Origin: Flavobacterium araucananum
GTDB taxonomy: Bacteria > Bacteroidota > Bacteroidia > Flavobacteriales > Flavobacteriaceae
Reading direction: 5' to 3'
Length of the DNA stretch: 64,000 nucleotides
NCBI RefSeq assembly: GCF_002222055.1
Contig: NZ_MUGS01000011.1
Coordinates: forward strand, 1-64,000
Both the position numbers and the translations under genes were made by a program. The notes under the pieces are model-generated. The model saw nothing but the letters and a program-made list of their open reading frames with translations. It did no database searches and had not been told where the DNA came from. The first letter of the stretch is position 1; the number at the start of each line of letters is the position of its first letter. Positions 41,053 to 55,860 of the stretch are shown here, in pieces.

Positions 41053-41577
41053 ATGCTTATAAAATCTGTAAACGGAAAAACTCCGGCTATTCCGGAAGAT
41101 TGTTATGTTGCCGAAAACGCTACAATTGTGGGCGATGTTACTTTTGGCGATTCTTGCAGCGTTTGGTTTAATGCTGTAATTCGTGGCGATGTAAACTTTA
41201 TTAAAATAGGAAATAAAGTAAATATTCAGGACGGTGCCATAATTCATTGCACATATCAAAAGCACCCAACAATTATAGGTAACAATGTTTCTATCGGGCA
41301 TAATGCAATCGTGCACGGATGCACAATTCATGACAATGTTTTGATTGGGATGGGCGCTATCGTAATGGATAATTGTGTTGTAGAAAGTAATTCGATTATA
41401 GCAGCAGGAGCTGTTATCACACAAAATACAGTTGTAGCTTCCGGTACTATTTATGCAGGTGTTCCTGCAAAAAAAGTAAAAGACATCGATCAATCTGACT
41501 TTGCAGGAGAGATTGAGCGCATTTCCAACAATTATGTAATGTATTCAGGCTGGTTTAAAAACGAAGAAGAACTATAA
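41053..41577 (+). CDS. Gamma-class carbonic anhydrase-like hexapeptide protein
   Basis: 174 residues of left-handed beta-helix repeats (NATIVGDVTFGDSCSVWFNA). Metal-ligand histidines sit in IHCTYQ and IGHNAIVHGC, as in the YrdA/CaiE/gamma-CA family. RGDVNFIKIGNKVNIQDG is highly characteristic. Members bind zinc or iron and some hydrate CO2; activity for this branch is unproven. The 3' end overlaps the convergent LytTR gene by 6 bases. Confidence 0.92.
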   Translation: MLIKSVNGKTPAIPEDCYVAENATIVGDVTFGDSCSVWFNAVIRGDVNFIKIGNKVNIQDGAIIHCTYQKHPTIIGNNVSIGHNAIVHGCTIHDNVLIGMGAIVMDNCVVESNSIIAAGAVITQNTVVASGTIYAGVPAKKVKDIDQSDFAGEIERISNNYVMYSGWFKNEEEL

Positions 41578-42288
41578 ATTGATCCTTTCGAAAAACGAAT
41601 TTTTATAACTTTCGCTAATAGGAATTCGTTTATCACTAATCAAAACTTTGTTTTTCTGAATTGATTTTACATGTTTGATATTAATGATATAAGATCTGTG
41701 AATTCTGGAGAATCCTTTGCTCGAAAGTAAGTTTTCCAGTTTTATTAAACTAATTAAAGTCAGCGTAAATTTATTATCAGTAGTATAAATTTTGACGTAA
41801 TCTTTTAAGCCTTCGATAAATAAAATATCCGAAAAGTTCATTTTTACGTTTTCATATTCTGCCCTTACAAACATAAAATCCTGCTCTAATTCCGGAGCAG
41901 TTGTGTTCTCTGAAATGGCCTGAATGGCTGTTGCCGGATTTAAAACCTGTTGCGCACGCACTACCGATTTTAAAAAACGATGAAACGGGATTGGTTTTAC
42001 TAAATAATCTACAGCACCCAGATTAAAACCTTCAACAGCATAATCAGAAAAAGCAGTTGTAAAAATAACCAAAGGCTTTTTTTCGATCGTATTCAGGAAA
42101 TCAATTCCGGAAAAATGAGGCATCTGGATGTCCAGAAAAATTAAATCGACGTTGTTTTGATTGATAAACGAAACGGCATCAATGGCATTATTAAAGGTGC
42201 TGATCAATTCAAGTGAATCTACTTTTCGAACAAAATCTTCTAATAATTCAACCGCTAAAGGTTCATCGTCTATAATTACACATTTCAT
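41572..42288 (-). CDS. LytTR-family response regulator
   Basis: 238 residues. Receiver domain about 1-115 with acidic pocket IIDDEP, phospho-acceptor D53 in LIFLDIQMP, T78/T79 in FTTAF and K98 in YLVKPIP. LytTR DNA-binding domain about 135-238 (FVRAEYENVKMNFSDILFIE, FSRIHRSYIINIKHV). The cognate kinase is most likely the LytS-like protein at 43126-44226, separated from it only by the dioxygenase-like gene. It has its own -7 element at 42334-42327 and overlaps carA-type gene 41053-41577 tail to tail. Confidence 0.94.
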   Translation of the reverse strand: MKCVIIDDEPLAVELLEDFVRKVDSLELISTFNNAIDAVSFINQNNVDLIFLDIQMPHFSGIDFLNTIEKKPLVIFTTAFSDYAVEGFNLGAVDYLVKPIPFHRFLKSVVRAQQVLNPATAIQAISENTTAPELEQDFMFVRAEYENVKMNFSDILFIEGLKDYVKIYTTDNKFTLTLISLIKLENLLSSKGFSRIHRSYIINIKHVKSIQKNKVLISDKRIPISESYKNSFFERINL

Positions 42289-42326
42289 TTGTTGAAGTTT
42301 AAGATTTAAAGATTTGCTTTTGGGGT

Positions 42327-42334
42327 CAAAAGTA
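42327..42334 (-). promoter_or_regulatory. -7 promoter element of the LytTR regulator
   Basis: The minus-strand reading is TACTTTTG, matching TAnnTTTG, 38 bases before the ATG at 42288. The same octamer lies before the first gene of the cluster (46429-46436). Confidence 0.6.
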
Positions 42335-42391
42335 GTTTTAAACCAGTAAATTAAGTTTTAAAATTATCATAAAATACTGATTGATAAAAAA

Positions 42392-43102
42392 TTATCCGTT
42401 TACAGTAACGGTTTTGCTCAAAGTGTAACCATCTGTTAAGTTGCCAGTTAAAGTCGCTAATTCATCTGCTAAACTATCTGAGAAAACATTGTCTTTTGTG
42501 TTCGAAGTGTCTGCCTGGCCATGAGCAACATAATTGGTGCTCGAATATACCGTACTCGTAACATTTTCAGGAAAAGCAATTTGTGTTACTAACAAGGATG
42601 AACCTGTACTACTCAAAACTTCGACATGAACGTGTGGCGCCCTGCCCTGGTACCAACCCGGAAAAATCGACAGAAACGAAACAGCACCTTTTGAATCGGT
42701 GGTTTGCCTGCCTCGTAAAAAGTGAACCGAAGTATAATCTGTTTGCTGCATCGAAGTCCCGCCATATTCAGAATAATTTCCGTCTTTATCACAATGCCAT
42801 ACATCTACCAAAACACCCGCCAGAGGCGAACAGTTGTTGTTTTTATTTTCGATAACTAAATTGATAAGCAAAGCAACGCCAACGCGGTCAGATTTTATGT
42901 TTTCTAAAACCAGCTGACTTGGTGTTTTGATAGGGAAGGGGCCTTTTGTTTCTGATGGAGAAACAGTGCAACTTGCGTCGTCTGTAGCAGTTGTGCCGGA
43001 GTCATCATTGTCATTTTTAGAACATGATTCTAAAACCTTAGCGGCAGTTGCCAGCGAAGCAATGCCTAAAATACTGTTTCGAATGAATTTTTTTCTGTCC
43101 AT
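42392..43102 (-). CDS. Intradiol ring-cleavage dioxygenase-like lipoprotein
   Basis: 236 residues. The N-terminus reads DRKKFIRNSILGIASLATAA...LESCSKNDNDD: a twin-arginine-like signal (R-K variant) ending in a lipobox with Cys 27, followed by an acidic stretch of the kind that directs lipoproteins to the cell surface in Bacteroidota. The catalytic domain keeps ETKGPFP, Y110 (GNYSEYGG), Y151, H157 and H159 (GWYQGRAPHVHVEV), the two Tyr and two His ligands of non-heme Fe(III) in protocatechuate/catechol dioxygenases. It would cleave catechol-type rings or a related substrate outside the cytoplasm. It is 23 bases after a histidine kinase gene, an unusual partner. Confidence 0.87.
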   Translation of the reverse strand: MDRKKFIRNSILGIASLATAAKVLESCSKNDNDDSGTTATDDASCTVSPSETKGPFPIKTPSQLVLENIKSDRVGVALLINLVIENKNNNCSPLAGVLVDVWHCDKDGNYSEYGGTSMQQTDYTSVHFLRGRQTTDSKGAVSFLSIFPGWYQGRAPHVHVEVLSSTGSSLLVTQIAFPENVTSTVYSSTNYVAHGQADTSNTKDNVFSDSLADELATLTGNLTDGYTLSKTVTVNG

Positions 43103-43125
43103 AATAAGTGCGTTAAATCCGTTAA

Positions 43126-44226
43126 TTAATCTATTGCAGTCTGAATTTTATCTAATTTTAAATTCAGGTGTACACGGTAATATTGATTGTCCTGTGTTAT
43201 AGTAAGTTCATGCGCGTTTGGATATAGTAAATCCAGTCGGTTTTGAATGTTTACCAATCCTATTCCTGAATTTTCAGGATCTTTGACATAGTTTTCAATC
43301 GTGTTTTCGATCCAGAAATCGAGATTATTTTCAAGAATAAAAATCTTGATCTTGACATGCGCGGCACCTTTGTAATCAGTTCCGTACTTAAATGCATTTT
43401 CTACAAACGAAATAAGCAATAAAGGTTCAATAAACTGATTTCTGGTATCGCCATGAACGTTGATAACGATGTCTTCGATATTGTTGAGCCTGAGTTTTTG
43501 CAACTCAATATAATTCTGGATATAATTGACTTCTTTTTCTAAAGCCACCGTTTTGTTATCCGTTTCATACAGCATATACCGCATTAATTCTGATAATGTG
43601 ACGATGGCATCAGGGACCAAATCAGATTTTTTGTGTGCCAATGAATAAATACTGTTCAATGAATTGAATAAAAAATGCGGGTTTGTTTGTTTGCGCAAGT
43701 AAATCAACTCAGTATTTGTTCGGTGTGTCTCGGCAATTAATTTATTTTGTTGATTGTTATAAAATTCTGTAAGCGTTCTTATAATGGCACTTATGGTAAT
43801 AATTAAAATATAGAAAAAAGAAGGTCCAATTTTAAAAAACAAAGGCTGTCTGGTTGCCATCATCATTCTGGGTCTTGTCTCTTTAAATATTAGTTTAAGC
43901 TCTTCAGGCGGTATCATTCGCGTTCGTGCGTGCCTAAATTCAGGAATGAAATAATTGATCCTGATGATCATAAACAGTAAAATAAGAGCAAATGCAAAGA
44001 CAAAATAAAGCCAGTATTTTTTTTCTAAAAGTAAGACCGGAACCAAGTAGAAATAGTTCAGATAAAACAAAATAATTCCTGTGGTCCATTGTACATAAAA
44101 GTCATTATTGATCTTAAACGGACTTTCGTAAAACTGAATTAATGAAGTCAGGATAAAGAAAACCCAAATGATGCAATGGAATAAAATTTTATTTGAACTC
44201 GTATTTCTGATGGTATCTATTTTCAT
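43126..44226 (-). CDS. LytS/YehU-type sensor histidine kinase
   Basis: 366 residues. About four N-terminal membrane helices (for example ILFHCIIWVFFILTSLIQFY and FYILIITISAIIRTL) without a large extracellular domain. The His_kinase domain has the phosphorylatable H184 in QTNPHFLFNSLNSIYSLA, and the ATPase part shows PLLLISFVENAFKYG (N box) and NSGIGLVNIQNRLDLLYP (G box). Kinases of this family pair with LytTR regulators, here at 41572-42288. The start directly abuts the DUF4907 stop with no gap, so translation is probably coupled. With almost no sensory domain of its own it may rely on neighbouring envelope proteins for input. Confidence 0.94.
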   Translation of the reverse strand: MKIDTIRNTSSNKILFHCIIWVFFILTSLIQFYESPFKINNDFYVQWTTGIILFYLNYFYLVPVLLLEKKYWLYFVFAFALILLFMIIRINYFIPEFRHARTRMIPPEELKLIFKETRPRMMMATRQPLFFKIGPSFFYILIITISAIIRTLTEFYNNQQNKLIAETHRTNTELIYLRKQTNPHFLFNSLNSIYSLAHKKSDLVPDAIVTLSELMRYMLYETDNKTVALEKEVNYIQNYIELQKLRLNNIEDIVINVHGDTRNQFIEPLLLISFVENAFKYGTDYKGAAHVKIKIFILENNLDFWIENTIENYVKDPENSGIGLVNIQNRLDLLYPNAHELTITQDNQYYRVHLNLKLDKIQTAID

Positions 44227-44541
44227 TTATAATTTTATTTTTAATAAAATTAAATCATTTTTGGTTACCGTTGGCGATATGTTTTGTTTGAGTTTCGTTA
44301 CAACCAGATTGCCTACTTTAAGAGCATCTTTTTCTGATGTAAAACTTTTAGTGTCGCTTATTGCCGGAATAATCGATTGTTTGATTATAACCTTCTCTTT
44401 GTAAGCAACAGTATATCCCCAGCCAAAAGCCGTTTTAAAAGATCCTGTTTTTAAAACTTCCTGTTTTGAACAAGCTGCAAATTGCAAAACCAGTACTATA
44501 AACAGTAAATTCTTCTGGATTTTACTCCAGAAGAATTGCAT
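44227..44541 (-). CDS. DUF4907 family small lipoprotein (104 aa)
   Basis: From ATG 44541: a signal segment ending FAACSKQ with a lipobox Cys (C24); an in-frame ATG at 44562 would overlap the kelch gene by 14 bases and is the alternative. The mature part (GWGYTVAYKEKVIIKQSIIP, FTSEKDALKVGNLVVTKL, ISPTVTKNDLILL) fits the DUF4907 pattern. Function unknown. It lies between a surface-type kelch lipoprotein and a histidine kinase in a tight operon, suggesting it works in sensing or in the same envelope complex. Confidence 0.82.
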   Translation of the reverse strand: MQFFWSKIQKNLLFIVLVLQFAACSKQEVLKTGSFKTAFGWGYTVAYKEKVIIKQSIIPAISDTKSFTSEKDALKVGNLVVTKLKQNISPTVTKNDLILLKIKL

Positions 44542-44548
44542 TTTTGTT

Positions 44549-45553
44549 TTAGTTATCATCACTGTTTTGTTCTTCTAATGGTTTAAATTCCCAAGCATCG
44601 TCAAAGTAAGTAGAACCTACTCTGCCTAACATATAAAAACCACGATTATTGATTGCAAACCCAACAGCATCTGTTCTGCTTGCTCCTTCCATTGGAGTTC
44701 TTTCTACCCATAAATCAGTCGATGGAGTGTATTCCCAGATTGTTTTTATGCTTTCTCCGCCTACAACATATCCTAAACCATTCATAGAAAAACTAGAGGC
44801 ATTCGAACGAACAATTGCATAGTCATCATTATAACTGTAATCATCGTCAGTATCTTTGTCAATATCACGTTTTCTGGTCCATACATCTGTAGCAGGATCA
44901 AATTCCCAGAAGTCTTCCTGATAGACCCCGTTGTTAATTCCGGTTCCAAAATAGGCTTTATCAGCAATTATAAAAACGGTAGCATTACGTCTTTTGTTTC
45001 CGCTAAATCCGTTTACAAGCGTCCAGGCATTTGTCTGATCGTTGTATTGGTAGAAATCTTTAAGATAATTTCCGTCATAACCAGTTCCAAAAAAAGCTTT
45101 CCCGCCCACCTGAAAACCTACCGCAGCATAACGACCTGTTCCGGCAAAATCTGCTTTTTGAGTCCAGCTATTACTAGTAGGATCGTATTGGTAGAAATCC
45201 TTTAATTTGTTTGTCCCATCATAACCAAGACCTACATAACCTTTATCGTTAAGGGTAAAACTAGAAGCAGAACTTCTGCCAATTCCTGTAAAATCTGCTT
45301 TTTGTTCCCAGTAATCACCAGTAGAATTATAAGCCCATAAATCTTTTAAATAAACATCACCCGTATAACCAGTTGCTACATAAGCATAAGTTCCAATAAC
45401 AAAACTAGTTGCGCTAGATCGCGCAGGTCCGTCAAATGCTGATTTTTTGACCCAGTTTCCCATTAAATCATCATCGTCGTCGTTACTACAGCCTACAAAA
45501 AAGAGACTCGATAACAATGCCCCGAATAATATTCCTTTTTTTAAATTATTCAT
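44549..45553 (-). CDS. Kelch-repeat surface lipoprotein
   Basis: 334 residues. Lipoprotein signal with Cys 22 in FFVGCSNDDDDD; the acidic run right after the lipidated Cys is the Bacteroidota lipoprotein export signal type, so surface exposure is likely. The rest is six or so kelch blades with repeating G-AYVATGYTG, DLWAYNSTGDYWEQKADF and R-SASSF-- segments, forming a beta-propeller. Such propellers commonly bind proteins or glycans. It is followed by DUF4907 and preceded, 16 bases away, by a DUF6268-like barrel gene. Ligand unknown. Confidence 0.9.
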   Translation of the reverse strand: MNNLKKGILFGALLSSLFFVGCSNDDDDDLMGNWVKKSAFDGPARSSATSFVIGTYAYVATGYTGDVYLKDLWAYNSTGDYWEQKADFTGIGRSSASSFTLNDKGYVGLGYDGTNKLKDFYQYDPTSNSWTQKADFAGTGRYAAVGFQVGGKAFFGTGYDGNYLKDFYQYNDQTNAWTLVNGFSGNKRRNATVFIIADKAYFGTGINNGVYQEDFWEFDPATDVWTRKRDIDKDTDDDYSYNDDYAIVRSNASSFSMNGLGYVVGGESIKTIWEYTPSTDLWVERTPMEGASRTDAVGFAINNRGFYMLGRVGSTYFDDAWEFKPLEEQNSDDN

Positions 45554-45569
45554 AGTGTATTAAATTTAT

Positions 45570-46412
45570 TTATTGTTTGTATTTGATCCCAATTCCTAAA
45601 ACATAACCGTTGCCCGTATTAAAATCATATACCTTATGATTATCAGTATCGATTAAGTTGTATTTTTTGTCAAAATCATATCCGGCTTTAAAATTCAGAA
45701 ACCAGTTTTTGTCTACATTTCTTTCATATTCAAGTGCGGTAGTCATTTGCGATAAACTAACTTTTGTGGCATTATTATTTAAATTGTTTTGTGAATCTAA
45801 ATGATAAAAATTACCATTAAAGCTATTGCTCAGACTGAACTTATTACGGATATTATTAGCGTATGAAATTCTGGAATCAGGAAACCCAATTGACAAAGAA
45901 CCTGCATTGTTTATAATATAGTTCAGAGATAAAAGAGGCATGAATTTAGGAGCACCAAAAACGGTTGTTCTGGCAACACCTATGTTAATACTCGTATTGG
46001 TATTTAATTGCTGTTTAATTTCAAAACTTCCAAGAACTGTAAAAGCAGCAGCATCTATATTACTTTGAAAATTTACTGTTGGAGTAATCGAAAGATTTAG
46101 ATTTGTTGCAGTCGAAATTTCATGTGTAATTTCAAATCTGTTCTTAATCTGATTAAACCGATCTAAATTCTCATACGTATTGTAACTCCCTAGTTCATAA
46201 TTCACTTTCAAATTCGAATACTCTAATGTGTTTGTTATTTTGTTTTTGGTATCTATTTTTTTGTTAAACAATACACCAAGACTCGTTTCATTAAAATCAA
46301 TCTTATCAGTTGGTTCTGTTTTGATGTTCATACGAACCGAAAAGTTCTCCTGAGCTTTCATATTAAAAATTGAAATCAAAAAAACGGACCAAATTAAAAA
46401 CCTTGTTTTCAT
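45570..46412 (-). CDS. Outer membrane beta-barrel protein, DUF6268-like
   Basis: 280 residues with a signal peptide (IWSVFLISIFNMKAQ|ENFS). The body alternates polar and hydrophobic residues as in barrel strands (LEYSNLKVNYELGSY, RFEITHEISTATNLNLSI) and ends YVLGIGIKYKQ. It resembles proteins annotated as DUF6268 in Bacteroidota, though I cannot verify the family. It is the first gene of the cluster running to the kelch, DUF4907, kinase and dioxygenase genes, with a -7 element upstream, and may be the outer membrane component. Confidence 0.75.
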   Translation of the reverse strand: MKTRFLIWSVFLISIFNMKAQENFSVRMNIKTEPTDKIDFNETSLGVLFNKKIDTKNKITNTLEYSNLKVNYELGSYNTYENLDRFNQIKNRFEITHEISTATNLNLSITPTVNFQSNIDAAAFTVLGSFEIKQQLNTNTSINIGVARTTVFGAPKFMPLLSLNYIINNAGSLSIGFPDSRISYANNIRNKFSLSNSFNGNFYHLDSQNNLNNNATKVSLSQMTTALEYERNVDKNWFLNFKAGYDFDKKYNLIDTDNHKVYDFNTGNGYVLGIGIKYKQ

Positions 46413-46428
46413 TACTTATTTATTGGTT

Positions 46429-46436
46429 CAAAAGTA
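46429..46436 (-). promoter_or_regulatory. -7 promoter element of the barrel-kelch-kinase operon
   Basis: The minus-strand reading is TACTTTTG, matching TAnnTTTG, 16 bases before the ATG at 46412. Confidence 0.6.
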
Positions 46437-46619
46437 GGAGGCTAATGGTTTTAAAAAAAAGAAGATATATGTATGACACTTTTTGATAGACTAAACAGCC
46501 TTTTTTAAGGTTGAATGATCTATTTGAGCGTAATTATATATTGTAGATGTTTTTTTGGTGTTTATAGTAGAAAAACGCACGACTGTATATGTTATAGTGC
46601 GGTGCAGGAGAGTGCATTT

Positions 46620-46627
46620 TATATTTG
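46620..46627 (+). promoter_or_regulatory. -7 promoter element of the DUF4270 gene
   Basis: TATATTTG matches TAnnTTTG; it overlaps a TTG at 46625, ruling it out as start codon and supporting ATG 46643. This implies a very short leader of about 10 bases. Confidence 0.68.
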
Positions 46628-46642
46628 TTCAAAAAATTGATT

Positions 46643-47971
46643 ATGCACAAGTTTATATTGATGTTGTTTTGCGCAGTGACGATGATTTCATGCGGAACTG
46701 ATTCTGATGCCGGCGAATTTGTTGTTGGATCTGATTATTTGGCTTTAGGCAATAAAGTTATTTTAATTGATACCGTAACAGTCGATATGTCTACGATCAA
46801 TTTTGATTCGCTTGTGACCTCCAATCAAAGCCGAATTTTAATCGGGAATTACGAAGATCCACTTTATGGGAAGGTAAAATCAAATAGTTACTTTCAGCTA
46901 GCTTCAAGTTCATACGCCTTAAATAATAGCGGATCTGATACAGAAACGGCTAATTATGTTTTTGATTCTATTTCTATGATTCTTAAATATGACAACTATT
47001 ATTATGGTGATACGACCAAGGTGCAAACGTTCGATATTCATCGACTTACCCAAAAAGTAAAACCAAATACAGATGATAATAGTTTCTACAATAACTCGGC
47101 ATTAAGTTACAGCGACGAAAGTTTGGGAACAATCTCTTATAAACCACGCCCTAAAGAAAAAGACTCTATCAATATTAAAATGAGTACCGTGTTTGGAGCG
47201 GCTCTTTTTCAGAAATTAAAGAAAAGAGAGATTACAGATTTTGATAGTTTTAATGAATATTTAAAGGGGCTTGTTCTGGTACCCTCAACCGGAAATTCTG
47301 CCAGTATGATTGGTTTTCATGTCACGACCAGCAAGGTGCGGCTTTACTACTCAAAATACCAGGCAGAGACAGAAGAAACACCTTATATCATAGATTTTAC
47401 TATTGCAGATGCTACAAAACAATTCAACGCCATTTCATCAGATAAAACAGGAACTTTAATCGAAAATCTGCCCATCTCGACCAGTAGACTGTCGAGTTTG
47501 TCAACAAATCATCAGGGCTTTATTCAGTCCGGTACAGGAGTTGCCTGTAGGATTGATTTCCCGAATATAAAGCAGCTCAAATACATTTCGGCAAACGGAG
47601 CCATAGTCGACGCGCAGTTGCTTTTGAAACCGGTTAATAATACCTATTCTGAAAAATATCCCCTGGCAGATTCCTTAAAGGTTTATGTAGGCGATAATCT
47701 AAACAGAATAAGTGGCTCATTAGTGAATTCTGCCAATACAGCGGTTTTTGGTACACTGAATAAAAAAACGGATGAATTTAACGAAAACATAGGGTACACA
47801 ATTCCTATAGGTGCTTTTTTGCAGAAAGAAATGCTCAAACAATCCGATTCCAAATCGGCTCTTATCCTAACATTGCCGGGAATTTCTAAAGCAGTAAACC
47901 GGGTTGTTTTAGGAGATCAAAAACATCCGAACAATAAAATCCAGCTTAAAATTTATTACATCTCTTATTAA
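46643..47971 (+). CDS. DUF4270 family lipoprotein
   Basis: 442 residues from ATG 46643 (MHKFILMLFCAVTMISCGTDS, lipobox Cys 17). The first residues after the signal (SDAGEFVVGSDYL) and LIGNYEDPLYGKVKSNSYFQL are characteristic of DUF4270, a Bacteroidota-restricted family of unknown function with repeated beta-sandwich-like segments. The acidic stretch is a few residues from the Cys, so surface display is possible but weaker than in the kelch protein. The next gene starts immediately after its stop, making a two-gene operon with an outer membrane barrel. Confidence 0.86.
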   Translation: MHKFILMLFCAVTMISCGTDSDAGEFVVGSDYLALGNKVILIDTVTVDMSTINFDSLVTSNQSRILIGNYEDPLYGKVKSNSYFQLASSSYALNNSGSDTETANYVFDSISMILKYDNYYYGDTTKVQTFDIHRLTQKVKPNTDDNSFYNNSALSYSDESLGTISYKPRPKEKDSINIKMSTVFGAALFQKLKKREITDFDSFNEYLKGLVLVPSTGNSASMIGFHVTTSKVRLYYSKYQAETEETPYIIDFTIADATKQFNAISSDKTGTLIENLPISTSRLSSLSTNHQGFIQSGTGVACRIDFPNIKQLKYISANGAIVDAQLLLKPVNNTYSEKYPLADSLKVYVGDNLNRISGSLVNSANTAVFGTLNKKTDEFNENIGYTIPIGAFLQKEMLKQSDSKSALILTLPGISKAVNRVVLGDQKHPNNKIQLKIYYISY

Positions 47972-49207
47972 ATGAAAAGTAAAATAGTATATTTAAGTGG
48001 CGTCATTTTGATCTCGCTAACTTCATTTTCTCAAAGTATTTCAAGTTCTCCATATTCGTTATATGGAGTAGGTAGTCTGTACGATGCTGATTTTGGCGTA
48101 CTTCCGTCAATTGGTTCTTCAGGAATGGCTTTACCATCAGATACTTTTATAAATAATCTAAATCCGGCATCATTAGGGTCTTTACCTCAAAATCATTTTA
48201 TGTTTGATGTAGGAGGAAAAGCTATTTCGACCACTTACCAAGGTGGTTCAAGAAGCGAAAGCCGTAATAATTTTCAATTTTCTCATATTGCTTTTGCTTT
48301 TCCGGTTACCAAAAATTCCGGATTTAGTGTAGCTTTACGACCTTATTCCAGTGCGGCTTTTAAGATCTCTAATTTAAAATTACCCATAGACAATAGTCAG
48401 GATTCTTATTATTTGACCGCAGCAGGTTCCGGGGGATTAAATAATTTCGATTTTTCGTATGGATATCGATTTGGGAAAAAATTATCGATAGGAGCATCAG
48501 CATCTGTATTGTTTGGAAGCACAAGTGATGATAGAAGTTTTCTGATTATGAATTCGATTACGAGCATTCAGAAAAAAACAAATTACAGCGGTGTCCGTGC
48601 TACATTAGGGGCGCAATACAAAATAGATTCTACTCTTACCGTAGCCACAACATTTAAAGTGCCAACGAGAATTAAAGCCTCTAAAGTTCAAACGGTTCAA
48701 ACTGTTGCTGATAATGTTGTTACTACTGTAGAGTCTAATGTAGCATCAGATACAGATGATTATTATATGCCTCTGGAAATGGGTATAGGAATTAGCAAGC
48801 GTTTTAAGAACAATTTGAATATGACGCTGGATTATGAGAAGAGTTTGTGGGATGATACAAAGCAATCTGAATTGTACGGTAATTTTGTAAATCAGGATCG
48901 ATTTGCACTTGGATTTACGTTTAGCCCTAAAAAGAATATCCGTAAATATTGGGACAGGGTTCAATATGCAGCGGGTGCAAATTTTGATACCGGTTATCTT
49001 GAAGTCGACGGGAAAAGAGTAAATAATGCGGCAATTTCGGTTGGACTTACTTTACCAATAGAAAACACCTATTCGGCTTTGCATATTTCGTATTCCTACG
49101 GACAAAAGGGGAGTGTCTCTGATAATTTAATTAAAGAAAACTACCATAAGATATCTCTTAATTTATCTCTGGACGGAATTTGGTTTATCAAACGAAAAAT
49201 AGACTAG
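47972..49207 (+). CDS. FadL-like outer membrane beta-barrel protein
   Basis: 411 residues with a signal peptide (GVILISLTSFSQ|SISS). The N-terminal part YSLYGVGSLYDADFG...NPASLGSLPQNHFMFDVGGK resembles the hatch and first strands of FadL/TodX or UPF0164-like transporters (NPA motif), and the rest alternates like a barrel (NFDFSYGYRFGKKLSIGASASV, AALHISYSYGQK-type strands). No gap separates it from the DUF4270 stop. It may act with that lipoprotein in uptake or envelope assembly; the substrate is unknown. Confidence 0.8.
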   Translation: MKSKIVYLSGVILISLTSFSQSISSSPYSLYGVGSLYDADFGVLPSIGSSGMALPSDTFINNLNPASLGSLPQNHFMFDVGGKAISTTYQGGSRSESRNNFQFSHIAFAFPVTKNSGFSVALRPYSSAAFKISNLKLPIDNSQDSYYLTAAGSGGLNNFDFSYGYRFGKKLSIGASASVLFGSTSDDRSFLIMNSITSIQKKTNYSGVRATLGAQYKIDSTLTVATTFKVPTRIKASKVQTVQTVADNVVTTVESNVASDTDDYYMPLEMGIGISKRFKNNLNMTLDYEKSLWDDTKQSELYGNFVNQDRFALGFTFSPKKNIRKYWDRVQYAAGANFDTGYLEVDGKRVNNAAISVGLTLPIENTYSALHISYSYGQKGSVSDNLIKENYHKISLNLSLDGIWFIKRKID

Positions 49208-49211
49208 TGGT

Positions 49212-49988
49212 CTAGAAGTCTTTTTCGATTACAGGAAATTTATAGTCTAAAATTGATTTTAAAACCTCAGGATTTGAATTGACATAAAAAACAGGATCAC
49301 TATTTTGCTCGTCTGTAAAACCTACTTTCTCGCGCAATACATTTTGAGTTTGTCGTGCAACGGCTTCTCCGGAATCGATAATTCGGATGTGCTCCGGCAG
49401 TATTTTTTTAATCTGAGGAATTAGATAAGGATAATGGCTGCAACCTAAAACCAGATAATCAATATTGGCATCAATCATAGGTTGCAGGTATGAATCAAGT
49501 AATTGAGTCATCTCCGGCGAATACAAATTTCCATCTTCGATTAGCTGAACAAGTCCATGACCTACTTGTTCAATAATAGTAGTATGCTGAAACATTTCTG
49601 CAGTTTTATTAAACAACTCACTGTTTAGGGTTCCTTGTGTAGCAAGAATTCCAATTACCTGGGTTTTAGAATTGTTTGCAGCAGGTTTTATGGCAGGTTC
49701 GATTCCTATAAACGGAATATCATAAGAGGCACGAAGTTCTACAATAGCATTGGTTGTGGCAGTATTGCAGGCAACAACAATAAGTTTGCAATTCAGGTCT
49801 AATAATAAATCAACATTTTTTTTGCTTAAAGCAACAATCTCTTCTTTGGTTCTTTGACCGTAAGGAGCATTTTTGCTATCTGCCAGATAAATAGTTTTCT
49901 CGTTTGGAAGTAAGTCATGAATGGCGCTCCAGATGGAAGTTCCTCCAATACCAGAATCAAAAACGCCTATAGGATTGTTGTTCGTCAT
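49212..49988 (-). CDS. murI: Glutamate racemase
   Basis: 258 residues. Both catalytic cysteines are present: C74 in VVACNTATTN and C183 in LGCSHYPY, plus D11 in FDSGIGG. It converts L- to D-glutamate for peptidoglycan. A -7 element TAAATTTG (50000-49993, minus strand) ends only 4 bases before the ATG, implying a leaderless or nearly leaderless mRNA. It is separated from the ompH genes by a strong terminator at 50083-50122, so it is an independent unit. Confidence 0.95.
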   Translation of the reverse strand: MTNNNPIGVFDSGIGGTSIWSAIHDLLPNEKTIYLADSKNAPYGQRTKEEIVALSKKNVDLLLDLNCKLIVVACNTATTNAIVELRASYDIPFIGIEPAIKPAANNSKTQVIGILATQGTLNSELFNKTAEMFQHTTIIEQVGHGLVQLIEDGNLYSPEMTQLLDSYLQPMIDANIDYLVLGCSHYPYLIPQIKKILPEHIRIIDSGEAVARQTQNVLREKVGFTDEQNSDPVFYVNSNPEVLKSILDYKFPVIEKDF

Positions 49989-49992
49989 GATA

Positions 49993-50000
49993 CAAATTTA
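49993..50000 (-). promoter_or_regulatory. -7 element almost touching the murI start codon
   Basis: The minus-strand reading is TAAATTTG, then four bases, then ATG. If functional, the transcript begins at or within a base or two of the start codon. Confidence 0.55.
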
Positions 50001-50082
50001 GTGTTTTTTGAAATCAATTGATATTTCAATTGATATGAAATATGCTAATATTTTGATTTATTACTTTTAATTGGATGCAATA

Positions 50083-50122
50083 AAAAAACTGCTTAAACTT
50101 TTGAAGGTTTAAGCAGTTTTTT
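50083..50122 (-). terminator. Strong terminator after the ompH genes
   Basis: A 16-bp perfect stem (50083-50098 with 50107-50122), 8-nt loop, A and T runs at both ends. It lies 22 bases past the 50144 stop on the minus strand and separates the operon from murI. Confidence 0.9.
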
Positions 50123-50143
50123 ATTTTTTAAGGAATTCGTTTT

Positions 50144-50647
50144 TTAGAATCCTAAGTCTTTTTTAACGTCAGCAGTAATGTTTGGACCATCAGCTAATAA
50201 AAGAGTAGAACCATCTAATACATATTGGAAACCTTTCGCTTTTCCAACTTTTTGGATAGAAGCTCTCACTTTTTCCATTAATGGTTTTACGATGTCAGTT
50301 TCTTTTTGTTGTAATTCTTTTTGAGCATTGTCTCTGTAGTCAACAATTCTTTTTTGCATGTCCTGAACTTCTTTAGAACGTTCTCCGTTTACAGCATCAG
50401 TTACAGTTGCAGCTTCACCTTCGTATTTTTTTATTTTTACTTGGTATTCGTCAACCATTTTTTTGTATTCTGCATCGTATGTCCCACTTAATTTTTGTAA
50501 TTGGTTTTGTGCATCCAGCATTGCAGGCATTTTCGACATAATCTCGCTAACATCAACATGAGCTACCTTAGCTTGTGCGTTCATTGTGTTACTTGCTCCT
50601 AAAATTAGTATTGCAGCAATTAGTAAAGTTTTGATTTGTTTCATCAT
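50144..50647 (-). CDS. OmpH/Skp-family periplasmic chaperone (short)
   Basis: 167 residues, signal peptide (LLIAAILILGASNTMNAQ|AKVA). VAHVDVSEIMSKMPAML, coiled-coil middle (KKMVDEYQVKIKKYEGEAA) and C-terminal KGFQYVLDGSTLLLADG are the Skp fold. Skp trimers hold unfolded outer membrane proteins in their tentacles until BamA inserts them; bamA is two genes upstream in the same direction. Separated from the longer OmpH gene by 15 bases, so co-transcribed. Confidence 0.93.
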   Translation of the reverse strand: MMKQIKTLLIAAILILGASNTMNAQAKVAHVDVSEIMSKMPAMLDAQNQLQKLSGTYDAEYKKMVDEYQVKIKKYEGEAATVTDAVNGERSKEVQDMQKRIVDYRDNAQKELQQKETDIVKPLMEKVRASIQKVGKAKGFQYVLDGSTLLLADGPNITADVKKDLGF

Positions 50648-50662
50648 TTTTAAAAATATTAA

Positions 50663-51703
50663 TTAATTATTGGTCGTATTTGATTTTTGTGTTTCGGCTT
50701 CTTTTGCTTTTTTAGCCGCTTCTCTTTCTTCTATAATTTTCTTTCTTCTTTCTTCTAATTCTTTCTTGCGCTGTTCGTAAAGCTTTTGTCTTTCTTCTGC
50801 TTTATTTACTGCAGGATCCGTTGTTGTTTCGGTTGTCGTAGCAGCAGGTTTTGCTGTTGCGTCAGTTTTTGTTGCATCTGTCTTAACAGCATCAGTTTTG
50901 GCTGTTTCAGAAGTTGTTGTTGTTTTAGCTGGTTCAGAAACCGTGCCATTTTTTTTAGCTTCTCTTTCTGCAGCAATCGCTTTTCTTCTGTCGTCGTATT
51001 CTTTTTTCTTAGCTTCCTGCTCTAAACGTCTGTCTTCAATTAGTTTTTCTCTGGCTGTTCGTTTATCATCCAACGCTTTTTGACGATCTGCCATTGCTGG
51101 ATTTTCATCTATAGCGTTTTCAACTTTTTCTTTAGCTTCCTGATCTTTTAATTGTTTTTTAGTCAGTTGTTCTCTTTTATCAGTTCGGTTTAAAACCCGT
51201 ATAACCTGATCGCTTATGTCAAATCTTTTGTTGCTAAAAAGCATGGTTAAATCGGATGATTTATCAAAAACAAAATCATAGTTTTTAGCTTCTGCAATAT
51301 CCTGAACAGCAGTAAACACCTGATCCTGAATTGGCTTTACCAATGCTGCTTTTTGATGCATTAAATTTCCGTCAGACCCAAATTGTTTTTGCTGATAATC
51401 CAGCATTTCAGTCTCCAGAAATTTAATTTCAGTTTCTCTTTCGTCAATAAGTTCTTTAGTAAGCAAAGCTCTTTCGGCTTTAAGACCTTCTTTAATAGTA
51501 CTGATTGCGAGTTTTTTTGCCTCTATTTCCTGTTTCCACTTTTGAGCTTTCAGCTCTAATTGTGCTTTTGCTTCTTTGTAATCTGAGACATTTTCTAAAA
51601 TATATTCCATGTCGATATACCCAATCCTTGTTGTTCTAGTCTGAGCCTGACTTGTATTTGCAACAATCAGGGCTAAAAAGATAAATAAAAATTGTTTTCT
51701 CAT
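50663..51703 (-). CDS. OmpH/Skp-family protein with long charged C-terminal extension
   Basis: 346 residues, roughly twice the usual Skp length. The signal peptide ends VANTSQAQ|TRTT. The first ~175 residues are Skp-like (RIGYIDMEYILENVSDY, AEAKNYDFVFDKSSDL). The remainder is Lys/Glu/Arg-rich coiled coil interrupted by a Thr/Ala/Lys linker with repeated KTDA units (about 250-290). The extension is of a kind I do not know from proteobacterial Skp; it could reach further across the periplasm. A -7 element (TACATTTG, 51739-51732) gives this pair its own promoter downstream of bamA. Confidence 0.9.
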   Translation of the reverse strand: MRKQFLFIFLALIVANTSQAQTRTTRIGYIDMEYILENVSDYKEAKAQLELKAQKWKQEIEAKKLAISTIKEGLKAERALLTKELIDERETEIKFLETEMLDYQQKQFGSDGNLMHQKAALVKPIQDQVFTAVQDIAEAKNYDFVFDKSSDLTMLFSNKRFDISDQVIRVLNRTDKREQLTKKQLKDQEAKEKVENAIDENPAMADRQKALDDKRTAREKLIEDRRLEQEAKKKEYDDRRKAIAAEREAKKNGTVSEPAKTTTTSETAKTDAVKTDATKTDATAKPAATTTETTTDPAVNKAEERQKLYEQRKKELEERRKKIIEEREAAKKAKEAETQKSNTTNN

Positions 51704-51731
51704 AACATTAGTCTATTTTAAAAATTTCAAA

Positions 51732-51739
51732 CAAATGTA
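51732..51739 (-). promoter_or_regulatory. -7 promoter element of the ompH pair
   Basis: The minus-strand reading is TACATTTG, matching TAnnTTTG, 28 bases before the ATG at 51703 and just after the bamA stop. Confidence 0.65.
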
Positions 51740-51751
51740 CTAAAAATTCTA

Positions 51752-54424
51752 CTAAAATTGTTGTCCAATAATAAAGTGAATTTCTTTACCGTGTGCTTTA
51801 GTTTCTCCCGGCTGAGGATCGAATCCGTAACCCCAGTCAATACCTAATAATCCAAATGCTGGCATGAATACACGTAAACCAACACCGGCAGAACGATTTA
51901 GATCAAATGGGTTGTATTCTTTAAAAGTTGGGTATGATGATCCAGCCTCTAAGAAAGCCAACGCATAGATGGACGCAGATGATTTTAATGTAATTGGATA
52001 ACGTAACTCCATAGAGAACTTATTATAAATAGTTGCTCCAATTTGCTCTCCTTTTGCATTTACAGGAGTCAATGAGTTATTTTCATAACCTCTTAACTGT
52101 ATTGTTTCTCTACCATCCATAGAGTAATTCGCCATTCCGTCTCCTCCTAAGTAAAAACGCTCAAATGGTACAACACCTCTTGATTGATCATAAGCACCTA
52201 AGAAACCAAACTCTGTCAAAGTTCTTAAAACTAATTTACCATAGATTTTAGTATACCAGTCTGCTTTAAATTTAATTTTATAGTATTCTAACCAGTTATA
52301 TTTCTTTTGATCGACTTTTCCCTGATCCGTATCAGCATTTGCATAATCAGATCCTACACTTGCATAACCTGATTGTCCATTTACAGTTTCAGTTTTTACA
52401 TAATCACCAGGATTAAGTGGCTGACCATCTATACCAGAAGTTGCTGTTCCTGTATATTGTGTTTTGTATTCTTTTTGATTTTGCAAATCTCCGTAATTAA
52501 CCCCGTTGAATAGCGAGTATGGAGGCGTAATTTTTGCCGAAATACTAAAGTCTGAACCGTAAGTTGGGAAAATCGGGTTAACCCCTTTATTACTTCTTGA
52601 AAGTCCAATTGTATACGCTAAGTTTCTTGATGCTCCGTTACCAAAAGTAAATAATCCTGTATTATAATTATTCAAATCATAATGTTGGTAACTTACAGAT
52701 TGTGACAATACAAAATAATCATCCGGCACAGTAAGACGTTTTGCTAAACCAACTTGTAAAGTCAGGATGTTAAAACTTTTACTTTTATCGACTGTTCTTG
52801 TCGCATAATTGTTTAAGAATTGTTTACTGTAAGAGATAGAAGAACTAAATTGTACAGGCTTTTTACCACCAAACCATGGTTCTGAGAATGATAAACTATA
52901 CGTTTGAAAATAGGTACTTCCTTGTAAACGAAGTGCTACTTTTTGACCATCTCCCATAGGCAATGGCTTATAAGATTCTTTGTTGAATAAGTTTCTTGCA
53001 GAGAAGTTGTTGAACGATAATCCTAATGTTCCAATGAAACCTCCGCCACCGTAACCTCCTTGAAGCTCGACCTGGCTGGATCCTTTTTCTACAACGTGGT
53101 ATTCGATATCTACAGTTCCTGCTCCGGCATCAACATTTTTGAATTTTGGATCAATAGCTTCAGGATCAAAGAATCCTAATTGTCCAATTTCACGAATAGT
53201 TCTTACCAATTGTTCTTTACTGTATTTTTCTCCTGGCTTAGTTCTAAGCTCACGGTAAATTACGTGGTCATTGGTTTTATCATTTCCTACAACAGATATT
53301 TTATTAAAATAGGCAATAGGACCTTCTGTAACTCTAATTTCAAAATCGATAGTATCGTTTACCGTTTTTACCTCTACAGCATTGATGTTAGAAAACAAAT
53401 AACCATTGTTTTGGTATAAGTTTGTAATATCTTCTGCATCAGGTTTTGTTTTGTCTGCAATACGTTTTTCAAGTAAAACACCATTATAGGTTTCTCCTTT
53501 TTTGATTCCTAAATAACGGTTTAATAATTGATCAGAATAAACGGTGTTTCCTAAGAATTTAATATTACCAAAGTAATATTTGTTTCCTTCTTCCATTTTA
53601 ATTTTGATAGCAAGCATATTTTTGTTCTTGTTATAAGTAACAGAATCATAAATAATACGAGCATCACGATATCCTTTTTCTTTGTAGGCAGCGACAACTT
53701 TTTCTAAGTCGGTTTTGTATTTTTCAGGAATAAATTTTGAAGATTTTAAAACACGAAAAATATTTTTTTGCTTGGTATCTTTCATGGCAGATCTCAATTG
53801 GTTTCCGCTAAGTTTTGTGTTACCAATAAAATCGATACTGCTAATCTTTACTTTATCACCTTTGTCTACCCGAACAAGCATGTTTACCTGATGTCCGTTT
53901 ATGGTATCAGGAGTATTTGTAATGGTAACTTTGGTGTTATAGTATCCTTCTTTTTTGTATTTGTTTTCGATGTAGTTTTTGGTCGTCGTGATTAAGTTTT
54001 CGTTGACAATTTTGTTTTTGGTCAAATTGTTGTCCTTGATTAATCCTTCGACTTTACTTTTCTTGATACCAACAAATTTTACTTCATTAAGTTTAGGAAG
54101 TTCAACAATATTTAAGTCAAGATAGATACTGTCATTTTCTACTTTATTTACATAAAAAGCAATTTCATCAAAAAGACCAAGTTTGCCCAGTTTTTTAATA
54201 GCACCACTAATTTCTTCACCTGGTACAGCTATTTCCTGTCCTTTTTGAAGACCTGAAAAGGTAACAACAGTTTGCTCATTGAAGCTTATTTTACCAACAA
54301 CAGAAACTTTAGCAAGAATGTATTTTTTTCCCTGATCAAAAGGAACTCTTTCTTGTGCTTTTATTTGAGAAAAACTACCCAAAAGAATTAGGGTAAAGAC
54401 TATTTGTATTCTTTTTTGTAACAC
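51752..54424 (-). CDS. bamA: BamA outer membrane protein assembly factor
   Basis: 890 residues from GTG 54424, 7 bases after the uppS stop; this start puts the signal peptide (RIQIVFTLILLGSFSQIKAQ) at the N-terminus, whereas an upstream in-frame start would place ~37 extra residues encoded within uppS before it. Five POTRA domains (about 30-440, for example VDKGDKVKISSIDFIGNTKL) precede a 16-strand barrel with the loop-6 motif LRGYENNSL and a terminal FIIGQQF. BamA inserts beta-barrel proteins, including the SprA and PorG type encoded here, into the outer membrane. Confidence 0.95.
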   Translation of the reverse strand: MLQKRIQIVFTLILLGSFSQIKAQERVPFDQGKKYILAKVSVVGKISFNEQTVVTFSGLQKGQEIAVPGEEISGAIKKLGKLGLFDEIAFYVNKVENDSIYLDLNIVELPKLNEVKFVGIKKSKVEGLIKDNNLTKNKIVNENLITTTKNYIENKYKKEGYYNTKVTITNTPDTINGHQVNMLVRVDKGDKVKISSIDFIGNTKLSGNQLRSAMKDTKQKNIFRVLKSSKFIPEKYKTDLEKVVAAYKEKGYRDARIIYDSVTYNKNKNMLAIKIKMEEGNKYYFGNIKFLGNTVYSDQLLNRYLGIKKGETYNGVLLEKRIADKTKPDAEDITNLYQNNGYLFSNINAVEVKTVNDTIDFEIRVTEGPIAYFNKISVVGNDKTNDHVIYRELRTKPGEKYSKEQLVRTIREIGQLGFFDPEAIDPKFKNVDAGAGTVDIEYHVVEKGSSQVELQGGYGGGGFIGTLGLSFNNFSARNLFNKESYKPLPMGDGQKVALRLQGSTYFQTYSLSFSEPWFGGKKPVQFSSSISYSKQFLNNYATRTVDKSKSFNILTLQVGLAKRLTVPDDYFVLSQSVSYQHYDLNNYNTGLFTFGNGASRNLAYTIGLSRSNKGVNPIFPTYGSDFSISAKITPPYSLFNGVNYGDLQNQKEYKTQYTGTATSGIDGQPLNPGDYVKTETVNGQSGYASVGSDYANADTDQGKVDQKKYNWLEYYKIKFKADWYTKIYGKLVLRTLTEFGFLGAYDQSRGVVPFERFYLGGDGMANYSMDGRETIQLRGYENNSLTPVNAKGEQIGATIYNKFSMELRYPITLKSSASIYALAFLEAGSSYPTFKEYNPFDLNRSAGVGLRVFMPAFGLLGIDWGYGFDPQPGETKAHGKEIHFIIGQQF

Positions 54425-54431
54425 TAAAATA

Positions 54432-55172
54432 TTATTTAATTTGTTCACTGGTTTTTCCAAATCTACGTTCTCTTTTTTGATAACTAATAATAGCCTCATA
54501 TAAATCTTGATCTTTAAAGTCTGGCCACAAGACATTAGTAAAATATAGTTCTGCGTAGGCTATCTGCCACAGCAAAAAATTACTTATTCTATGTTCTCCA
54601 CTTGTTCGTATTAATAAATCTACGTCAGGTAAATTTTGCGTGTAAAGATGCTCATTTATAATTGAATCGTCAATAGCGTCTATTGAAATTATATTATTTT
54701 TAACTTTATCACTGATGATTCTCACAGCATTTACCAATTCTTCTCGTGATCCGTAACTTAAAGCAAGGGTTAAGGTAAGTCGGGTATTATTTTTTGTTTT
54801 GTCGATTACATCCAAAAGCTCTTTTTGAGCTGATTTTGGTAATTTATCAATATTTCCAATTGCGTTAAGCTTGATATTGTTTTCTTCTAATGTAATAAGT
54901 TCTTTTTTTAATGAATTGATTAGTATTTTCATTAAAGTATCAACTTCTAATTTAGGACGATTCCAGTTTTCTGTCGAAAAAGCGTACAAAGTCAAATACT
55001 CGATGCCAAGTTTAGCACAAGTCTTAATTGTTTTTTTTACAGATTTTGTTCCGTTTTCGTGACCAAATGCCCTTAAAAAACCTTGTTGTTTTGCCCAACG
55101 ACCATTTCCGTCCATAATAATGGCCAAATGTTTGGGTAAGTTTGTTTGATCTATAGAGTCTAGTAAATTCAT
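54432..55172 (-). CDS. uppS: Isoprenyl (undecaprenyl) diphosphate synthase
   Basis: 246 residues from ATG 55172, four bases past the porG stop; an upstream TTG would put twelve residues inside porG. cis-Prenyltransferase motifs: HLAIIMDGNGRWAKQQG (catalytic D21), TLYAFSTENWNRP, and near the C-terminus DLLIRTSGEHRISNFLLWQ and YTE-type region (ELYFTNVLWPDF). It makes the C55 lipid carrier for peptidoglycan, O-antigen and other envelope polymers. Part of the porG-uppS-bamA operon. Confidence 0.95.
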   Translation of the reverse strand: MNLLDSIDQTNLPKHLAIIMDGNGRWAKQQGFLRAFGHENGTKSVKKTIKTCAKLGIEYLTLYAFSTENWNRPKLEVDTLMKILINSLKKELITLEENNIKLNAIGNIDKLPKSAQKELLDVIDKTKNNTRLTLTLALSYGSREELVNAVRIISDKVKNNIISIDAIDDSIINEHLYTQNLPDVDLLIRTSGEHRISNFLLWQIAYAELYFTNVLWPDFKDQDLYEAIISYQKRERRFGKTSEQIK

Positions 55173-55176
55173 TTTA

Positions 55177-55860
55177 TTATTCTGCGCAATAGCAAGGTTT
55201 TTGTCCAAAGGTATACGTTAAAGTGATACCTGAAAAGACATACCAGTCATTATTATTTAAATTTCCAAAATGCAATGGTTTATAATTAGCATTGCTTGGG
55301 TTACTTCCGTCGATATTGTCTGTAAAGGTGTAGCGGGCTCCAACTTCGGCACCCAAAACCCAATGAGGTGCTATATTCGATTTGATTCCTAATGTTATAG
55401 GTATGGCAACAGAACCTGAACTTTTGTCTTTTTTGGTTTGTCCTCCTAATATGTATAACTCATCGTACATGAAGTAACTTAATCCGGAGTATATATAAGG
55501 AGTAATTTTTGGATGATAATCATGAAGATTAAAGTCGAAAAAATTAAACTCTAAACCGGCAGAAAGCTCTTTTACAGTGTTTTCAAAACTATAGCCTCTT
55601 CTGTTTCTTCCTGTTTCTTTCGAATCGAAGTCATTTCCTGCAATAGTAGATTGTGTGTAGGAGAAGCGATACGAATGACGCGGGCTTTTATTCCATTTGT
55701 ACAAGATACCAAAAGCCAGTTTTTCAGGAGCAATATAAGTTGTACTTCCTACGTCGCCTACATAGTTACTTCCGCCAAGAAAAACACCAATCTCATTGAT
55801 TTGAGCGTTTAGTGTAATAAAGGGGATAAAACATAACAATAAATTAAAAATTTTCTTCAT
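55177..55860 (-). CDS. porG: PorG-like T9SS outer membrane protein (DUF6089)
   Basis: 227 residues, signal peptide ending TLNAQ|INEI. An eight-strand barrel is suggested by INEIGVFLGGSNYVGDVG, PRHSYRFSYTQSTIAGND, GLEFNFFDFNLHDY and the C-terminal ITLTYTFGQKPCYCAE. These match PorG/DUF6089, the outer membrane barrel that docks the PorK/PorN ring of type IX secretion. The order porG-uppS-bamA with a good promoter upstream is common in Flavobacteriia as I recall. The CxC near the end may interact with PorK. Confidence 0.88.
   Translation of the reverse strand: MKKIFNLLLCFIPFITLNAQINEIGVFLGGSNYVGDVGSTTYIAPEKLAFGILYKWNKSPRHSYRFSYTQSTIAGNDFDSKETGRNRRGYSFENTVKELSAGLEFNFFDFNLHDYHPKITPYIYSGLSYFMYDELYILGGQTKKDKSSGSVAIPITLGIKSNIAPHWVLGAEVGARYTFTDNIDGSNPSNANYKPLHFGNLNNNDWYVFSGITLTYTFGQKPCYCAE

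Follow-up and report, generated by a model that had tools for sequence, protein, structure and literature searches.

The first 64,000 nucleotides of contig NZ_MUGS01000011.1 (C13 in our contig numbering) of Flavobacterium araucananum, whose genome measures 5.9 Mb, constitute the window analyzed here. The window contains a cluster of envelope genes with a LytS/LytTR two-component system, facing a divergent gene pair that encodes BamH2 and BamG2, paralogues of the BamH and BamG subunits of the outer-membrane barrel assembly machine (BAM). An earlier note on this DNA had described six genes, encoding a DUF6268 barrel, a kelch lipoprotein, a DUF4907 protein, a LytS-like kinase, a dioxygenase-like lipoprotein and a LytTR regulator. 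All six were found on the minus strand where the note had placed them, with the spacing it gave and with Pfam support for each name (Table 1). The DUF6268 gene is followed after 16 bp by the kelch gene, which overlaps the DUF4907 gene by 14 bp; the kinase gene then begins at a distance of 0 bp, and the dioxygenase and regulator genes follow after 23 bp and 103 bp, respectively. The note closed the cluster at 46412 and so missed the BamH2-BamG2 paralogues: the conserved unit runs beyond this position and takes in the divergent pair at 46643-49207. The hallmarks of a LytS/LytTR pair are present, with catalytic motifs in the kinase (H-box at 183, N-box ENAFKYG at 276, G-box GIGLVN at 321) and receiver and LytTR domains in the regulator. 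The kinase has hydrophobic stretches, interpreted as four membrane helices whose outside loops measure ~16 and ~36 residues, so that its earlier description as having almost no extracellular domain is a fair one.

Table 1. Genes and regulatory features of the locus, with positions in the window.
Feature	Position	Strand	Basis or remark
LytTR response regulator	41572..42288	-	PF00072 E 8.9e-21, PF04397 E 1.3e-18
Candidate -7 element TACTTTTG of the regulator's own promoter	42327..42334	-	sequence
Intradiol-dioxygenase-like surface lipoprotein	42392..43102	-	PF00775 E 1.3e-11
LytS-type membrane histidine kinase	43126..44226	-	PF06580 E 5.1e-24
DUF4907 protein	44227..44562	-	PF16250 E 8.1e-24
Kelch-propeller surface lipoprotein	44549..45553	-	Kelch_1 E 6.6e-19
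DUF6268 outer-membrane barrel, first operon gene	45570..46412	-	PF19783 E 7.9e-14
Divergent regulatory region between DUF6268 and bamH2	46413..46642	.	aligned in 57 Flavobacterium loci
DUF6268 -7 element TACTTTTG	46429..46436	-	conserved block
Second, less regular repeat pair C(CTTAAA)..21..CTATnAAA	46481..46510	-	nearer DUF6268 promoter; first half-site weak
Direct repeat CTAYnA..(21 bp)..CTAYnA, LytTR-box-like	46540..46567	-	CTAY-17-CTAY count
bamH2 -7 element TATATTTG	46620..46627	+	read from sequence; conserved block
BamH2, DUF4270 surface lipoprotein	46643..47971	+	PF14092 E 1.2e-30; ATG start by reading, longest ORF from 46625
BamG2, FadL-type outer-membrane barrel	47972..49207	+	phmmer to PDB BamG chains

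Of the divergent pair, BamG2 is matched by phmmer to solved BamG chains from three Bacteroidota (9hjm_F, E 4e-35; 9hiv_F, E 2e-33; and 9n2d_B of F. johnsoniae, E 2.5e-32). The main BamG of the same genome, at C52:294761, is 28% identical to the window BamG2, and its main BamH, encoded on contig C12, matches F. johnsoniae BamH (9n2d_C) with an E-value of 7e-177 and is the other PF14092 copy of the genome. Because the main BamG and BamH are thus encoded elsewhere, the window pair represents second copies. BamG2 keeps a BamG-like motif in its N-terminal tail (SSPYSLYGVGSL, compared with ASPYSFFGIGDV in the BamG of the same genome), and a similar motif, as far as sequence goes, is found in distant BamG2 proteins. 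The N-terminal tail is the region through which BamG touches BamA, according to the available part of the F. johnsoniae paper (PMC12611786), and it is also the feature that sets BamG apart from FadL transporters according to the corresponding part of the B. thetaiotaomicron paper (PMC12578637). In BamG the C-terminal tail reaches BamD; the tail of the window BamG2, WFIKRKID, resembles that of the BamG of the same genome, WFVKSKFN, but most distant BamG2 proteins differ there. A BamH2 profile aligned collinearly with the main BamH of the genome over 405 columns but weakly (E 0.0015, probability 17). The structure model of BamH2 is of low confidence (pLDDT 51), and its only Foldseek match at E ≤0.001 was 9his_G, from the B. 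thetaiotaomicron BamHIJK entry (E 2.3e-9). The top VIA match was F. johnsoniae BamH, 9n2d_C (Z 13.1, 337 residues aligned, rmsd 15.2), with which the carbohydrate-binding module 8wab_B ties (Z 12.8); a carbohydrate-binding-module fold has also been reported for one domain of BamH itself (available part of PMC12611786). From these model comparisons, the window BamH2 is predicted to have the BamH fold. In a quick tree, a single starred clade, separate from the main BamH proteins, unites 21 kelch-linked DUF4270 proteins from the family of the window and four others; the DUF4270 protein of locus L087, which is not adjacent to a kelch gene, groups with the main copies on a long branch. Directly beside bamG2, positions 49212-55860 of the window hold genes for an Omp85 protein with POTRA domains (51752-54535, read as BamA), two OmpH/Skp-like proteins, undecaprenyl diphosphate synthase, a DUF6089 protein and a murI-like racemase. 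The DUF6089 protein is presumably PorG-like.

The distribution of the cluster was followed through its DUF4907 gene, which is present in 82 of 395 genomes sampled from the class and in 70 of 249 sampled from the genus. Neighbourhoods were fetched for the window, for genomes G065 and G101, for 60 of 67 further genus loci and for 58 loci from 79 DUF4907-positive genomes outside Flavobacterium. In 61 genus loci, with gene labels assigned by hidden Markov models (HMMs) built in this analysis, kelch is found in 61, the kinase, regulator, DUF4270 protein and FadL-type barrel in 59 each, DUF6268 in 57 and the dioxygenase in 16. Kelch, DUF4907, kinase and regulator genes stand in this order with a divergent DUF4270 gene in 58 of the 61, and one of the other three, L108, stops at a contig end. 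These counts omit L042, L119 and L139, in which the DUF4907 gene was not found as the centre; L119 and L139 hold the full kelch-kinase-regulator-BamG2H2 set, and L042 holds kelch, kinase, regulator and BamG2H2. Locus L139 has two LytS/LytTR pairs in opposite orientation at its one kelch-DUF4907-BamG2H2 site. A second set consists of 80 named Flavobacterium loci, one of them from F. johnsoniae CI04; as the best 80 of 336 relatives these are close relatives, and 79 are complete (the partial L225 was left out). The order BamG2-BamH2 // (DUF6268)-kelch-DUF4907-kinase-(dioxygenase)-regulator is kept in 79/79 complete loci, with DUF6268 present in 74. At least two DUF4270 matches were found in 68 of 70 DUF4907-positive genus genomes and in 4 of 179 DUF4907-negative ones (Fisher p 2e-53), the genomes not being independent because the locus is inherited as a block. 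Here, DUF4270 copies without a listed position were counted from the genome table; genome G504 was counted there as having one copy, and its linked copy was found in its locus, L135, by an HMM of this analysis. On account of these second copies, we infer that the window BamG2 and BamH2 are orthologous to the F. johnsoniae proteins of those names. The cluster is real and conserved, and its linkage to the BAM paralogues is well supported. In the genus sample, the genomes of at least 5.0 Mb carry DUF4907, and no negative genome is that large (rounded sizes, compared by eye); the locus goes with large genomes, possibly by descent alone.

Outside Flavobacterium, a DUF4270 gene lies within 3 kb of DUF4907 in 11 of 79 genomes and in none of the other 68. 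In 10 of the 11, a kelch gene adjoins as well, and BamG2 was detected in 8 of these 10 loci. Four other families possess the kelch-DUF4907-BamH2 set, where its flanks differ and its arrangement varies, being co-directional in some cases. Scattering of the families among relatives had been named in advance as a sign against a common system; within the genus the cluster withstood this test, while DUF6268 and the dioxygenase were found in 0 of 57 loci examined outside it. The description of a compact envelope cluster with a two-component system thus stands for kelch, DUF4907, kinase and regulator, whereas counting the dioxygenase among the defining members is not supported. Among the 10 kelch-DUF4907-BamH2 loci outside the genus, 6 have a LytS/LytTR pair next to them, as compared with 0 of 48 other DUF4907 loci, some of which are short (Fisher p 5e-6). 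These adjacent pairs occupy three different positions and were seen in two families besides that of the window and, within the latter, in one genus besides Flavobacterium. The adjacent kinases do not form one clade: twelve Flavobacteriaceae kinases make up a starred group in a tree with several long branches, and a single clade of all adjacent kinases, as one ancient dedicated kinase would require, was rejected (p-AU 3e-49). Attachment of LytS/LytTR pairs from more than one source is, in our view, the strongest sign that this is a module that cells want to switch. Kelch and DUF4907 together form a wider unit in Bacteroidia, for which we know of no assigned function; in several loci outside the genus, for example L038, L041, L067 and L074, between two and four consecutive kelch genes adjoin DUF4907, with no BamG2 or BamH2 nearby.

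A candidate target for the regulator lies in the divergent region between DUF6268 and bamH2. This region was aligned for 57 Flavobacterium loci (two of 59 regions were omitted for length, and L091 and L137 lack an adjacent DUF4270 gene), and in this alignment it contains blocks whose conservation exceeds that of the coding ends on either side. LytTR regulators bind repeats spaced two DNA turns (~21 bp) apart. A repeat of the form CTAY-17-CTAY is present in 54 of the 57 regions and in 0 of 57 on the opposite strand, with a chance expectation in random sequence of ~3% per 330-bp strand; the count is not one of independent cases because the loci are related. The repeat was also found in L138, L136 and L131. 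The second, less regular pair, counted as C-20-CTATnAA, is present in 44 of the 57 loci and in 0 of 57 on the opposite strand. A further conserved block of the region, CATATATMTTCTTTTTTT, is read for the DUF6268 direction. The earlier note had pointed out that the regulator and the first operon gene share one -7 octamer; the octamer does exist at both promoters, and it says little about co-regulation because the window contains 10 copies (5.15 expected, with 3 of 100 shuffles reaching 10) and because it fits what we take to be the Bacteroidota -7 consensus. In most loci that lack the dioxygenase, a similar stretch before the regulator has a TACTTTTG-like element, and the regulator seems, from these elements, to have a promoter of its own.

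The N-terminal signals of the encoded proteins suggest where they sit. Following the lipobox cysteine, the window kelch protein reads CSNDDDDD and the dioxygenase CSKNDNDD, and the window BamH2 has two acidic residues after its cysteine. At least two acidic residues follow this cysteine in kelch and BamH2 of 79/79 named loci (71/79 for BamH2 under a cruder first-Cys rule), and two acidic residues follow it in 37/37 copies of the dioxygenase. The earlier placing of three lipoproteins together thus holds for kelch and the dioxygenase, which carry the acidic surface-export signature, and not for DUF4907, which is a lipoprotein in the window (CSKQEV) and has at most one acidic residue among the six after the cysteine in 77 of 80 named loci and which in several distant loci begins with an N-terminal helix lacking a cysteine. 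DUF4907 is therefore probably periplasmic rather than surface-exposed, a position from which it could connect the surface parts with the kinase. The DUF4907 model (pLDDT 80) consists of a helix, three strands and two helices; no solved relative was found by sequence and no convincing fold match by structure (best Foldseek E 0.48; best Z 5.3, over 52 aligned residues).

The best explanation of these findings, and one to which we give about even credence, is that the locus serves an alternative or auxiliary BAM surface module and is under two-component control. The LytS-type kinase would sense the state of the envelope, either directly or via periplasmic DUF4907, and the LytTR regulator would act on the divergent promoter region, turning on bamH2-bamG2 to one side and DUF6268-kelch-DUF4907-kinase to the other. 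BamG2 and BamH2 would then make up a second BamGH unit at the cell surface, joined by the kelch lipoprotein as one more exposed component. Such a unit would most likely serve, under certain conditions, as an alternative or auxiliary BAM canopy that handles some of the outer-membrane clients. The more specific proposal that, upon LytS/LytTR activation, BamG2-BamH2 replaces or joins BamG-BamH on BamA with kelch as a new surface subunit is considerably more tentative.

The names BamG2 and BamH2 date from 2025, when no role was assigned to these paralogues (PMC12611786, PMC12578637, in the parts available), and several findings reported there weigh against the explanation above. In the available part of the F. 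johnsoniae study, BamG2 and BamH2 show no appreciable expression on rich medium, their deletion is tolerated, and no kelch protein is among the subunits listed for purified BAM (PMC12611786). B. thetaiotaomicron possesses a BamG2-BamH2 pair that was not detected, its BamG2 is reported as not essential, and the stress phenotype of a bamH bamH2 double mutant resembled that of bamH, which the authors took to argue against an alternative complex able to rescue a bamH mutant (available part of PMC12578637). Several of our own results point the same way. Only 10 of the 79 DUF4907-positive genomes outside Flavobacterium have both DUF4270 and kelch beside DUF4907; in 2 of those 10 loci BamG2 was not detected, and 4 of the 10 have no adjacent LytS/LytTR pair. 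The CTAY repeat was not found in L031, which has an orthologous kinase, nor in L139. Most distant BamG2 proteins do not retain the C-terminal tail motif of BamG (those of L032, L034, L040, L053 and L078 differ), and neither single-sequence nor profile searches with BamH2 found a solved BamH chain in the Protein Data Bank. The published B. thetaiotaomicron negatives and the silence on rich medium argue against a general role in BAM, yet they are compatible with a locus that stays silent as long as its regulator is inactive. Neither PMC12611786, which also has a figure of bam gene organization, nor PMC12578637 uses the word kelch in its main text; a literature search of titles and abstract starts found no link of kelch to BamG2 or BamH2. 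In the literature searched, DUF4907 was not mentioned and DUF6268 was named in one paper; among 20 of 34 papers containing the names BamG2 or BamH2, two deal with the proteins themselves. A possible iron link was considered and not used: BT1785-86 and BT1794-95 occur in an iron study, the BT1785-86 row of which was read as P 0.437 (available part of PMC10434189).

The main rival holds that BamG2, BamH2 and kelch form a stand-alone surface complex for uptake or for glycan or polymer binding, which shares the architecture of BamGH, does not sit on BamA, and is regulated by the two-component system in the manner of a nutrient or adhesion locus. Such a complex would account for the failure to find BamG2 and BamH2 in the published BAM work under standard growth (PMC12578637, PMC12611786, in the parts available), for the resemblance of the BamH2 model to a carbohydrate-binding module as close as that to BamH, and for the occurrence of the locus in the larger genomes of the genus sample. 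It is opposed by the BamG-like N-terminal tail retained in BamG2 and by a Pfam scan of 18 window proteins, which gave no match to the SusC or SusD families. We regard this rival as unlikely, while still to be taken seriously.

A further rival view is that the bamG2-bamH2 neighbourhood is positional only, the operon being inherited with the bamA-murI region and sharing no function with it. The flanks in Flavobacterium are indeed fixed, with MurI in 55 of 61 loci and a hexapeptide gene in 55 of 61, and the Omp85/POTRA gene lies nearby in the window. Purely positional linkage to bamA is nevertheless improbable because kelch, DUF4907 and BamH2 are also found together, between other flanks, in four further families. 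The linked DUF4270 proteins also form a clade of their own, and their presence is coupled to DUF4907 within the genus, though as one inherited block.

The dioxygenase was the basis of the function proposed in the earlier note, in which the operon would detect or process extracellular phenolics or catechols such as siderophores. The closest solved proteins by sequence are intradiol dioxygenases (6bdj, E 1.5e-21, and 5vg2), with which its Y110, Y151, H157 and H159 align by position; these two tyrosines and two histidines are presumably iron ligands of a predicted active site. Where present in the cluster, the gene always separates the kinase gene from the regulator gene. Of the 61 genus loci, 45 lack it, and a dioxygenase label was assigned in 36 of the 79 complete named loci, one copy being truncated to 68 residues (L250), which leaves 35 intact and 44 absent or truncated. 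The operon-type enzyme (80-92% identical to that of the window, or the window's own) occurs in 21 of 249 genus genomes, all DUF4907-positive, and other relatives of 34-61% identity are encoded elsewhere in genus genomes. On a FastTree tree of five concatenated locus proteins, from which L225 was also left out and in which the nearest relatives of the window are Flavobacterium records, its presence changes at least 15 times, a count that cannot separate gain from loss. DNA remnants of the gene (E < 0.01) were detected in the kinase-regulator gap of seven loci that lack it, measuring 71 bp in L226 (E 6e-16), 34 bp in L210 (E 1e-7) and 24-29 bp in L204, L216, L259, L263 and L264, the shortest being weak; a protein-level look gave E-values at chance level only. 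These remnants indicate repeated loss. Kelch and DUF4907, and within the genus also the kinase and regulator, persist without the dioxygenase, which is thus a dispensable accessory that is often lost. Although its acidic export signal, its aligned tyrosines and histidines and its constant position are as phenolic or catechol processing would have them, a gene so dispensable, decaying and confined to Flavobacterium among the loci examined leaves ring cleavage as the function of the whole system unsupported, so that catechol or siderophore sensing as the core function was rejected and the phenolic reading is very improbable.

Several parts of the locus have known counterparts from which they differ. 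Like other LytS/LytTR systems (PF06580 with PF04397), the window pair has a kinase with membrane helices and short loops, a LytTR regulator and direct repeats about two DNA turns apart at a candidate target promoter; it differs in that the pair can be interrupted by an optional enzyme gene, in a regulator seemingly with its own promoter, and in surface proteins carried in the operon beside BAM paralogues. The enzyme is related to extracytoplasmic-type intradiol dioxygenases (6bdj/5vg2, Tetur07g02040; 4ilt/4ilv), its closest solved relatives by sequence, which we take to be secreted proteins, whereas the window enzyme is a predicted surface lipoprotein and a dispensable passenger of its operon. 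With respect to the Bacteroidota BAM structures (9n2d of F. johnsoniae, 9hjm of P. gingivalis and 9hj3 of B. thetaiotaomicron), the divergent pair is homologous to BamG and BamH but consists of second copies, reported as deletable, and is linked to kelch and DUF4907 and, in Flavobacterium, to DUF6268 and a two-component system. The locus therefore offers a handle on BamG2 and BamH2, namely a regulator, a promoter region and the candidate partners kelch, DUF4907 and DUF6268. If the proposed explanation is true, the composition of BAM in Bacteroidota would be changeable by signal, which to our knowledge would be new for BAM, and our findings suggest that Flavobacterium is able to switch part of its outer-membrane assembly machine on demand.

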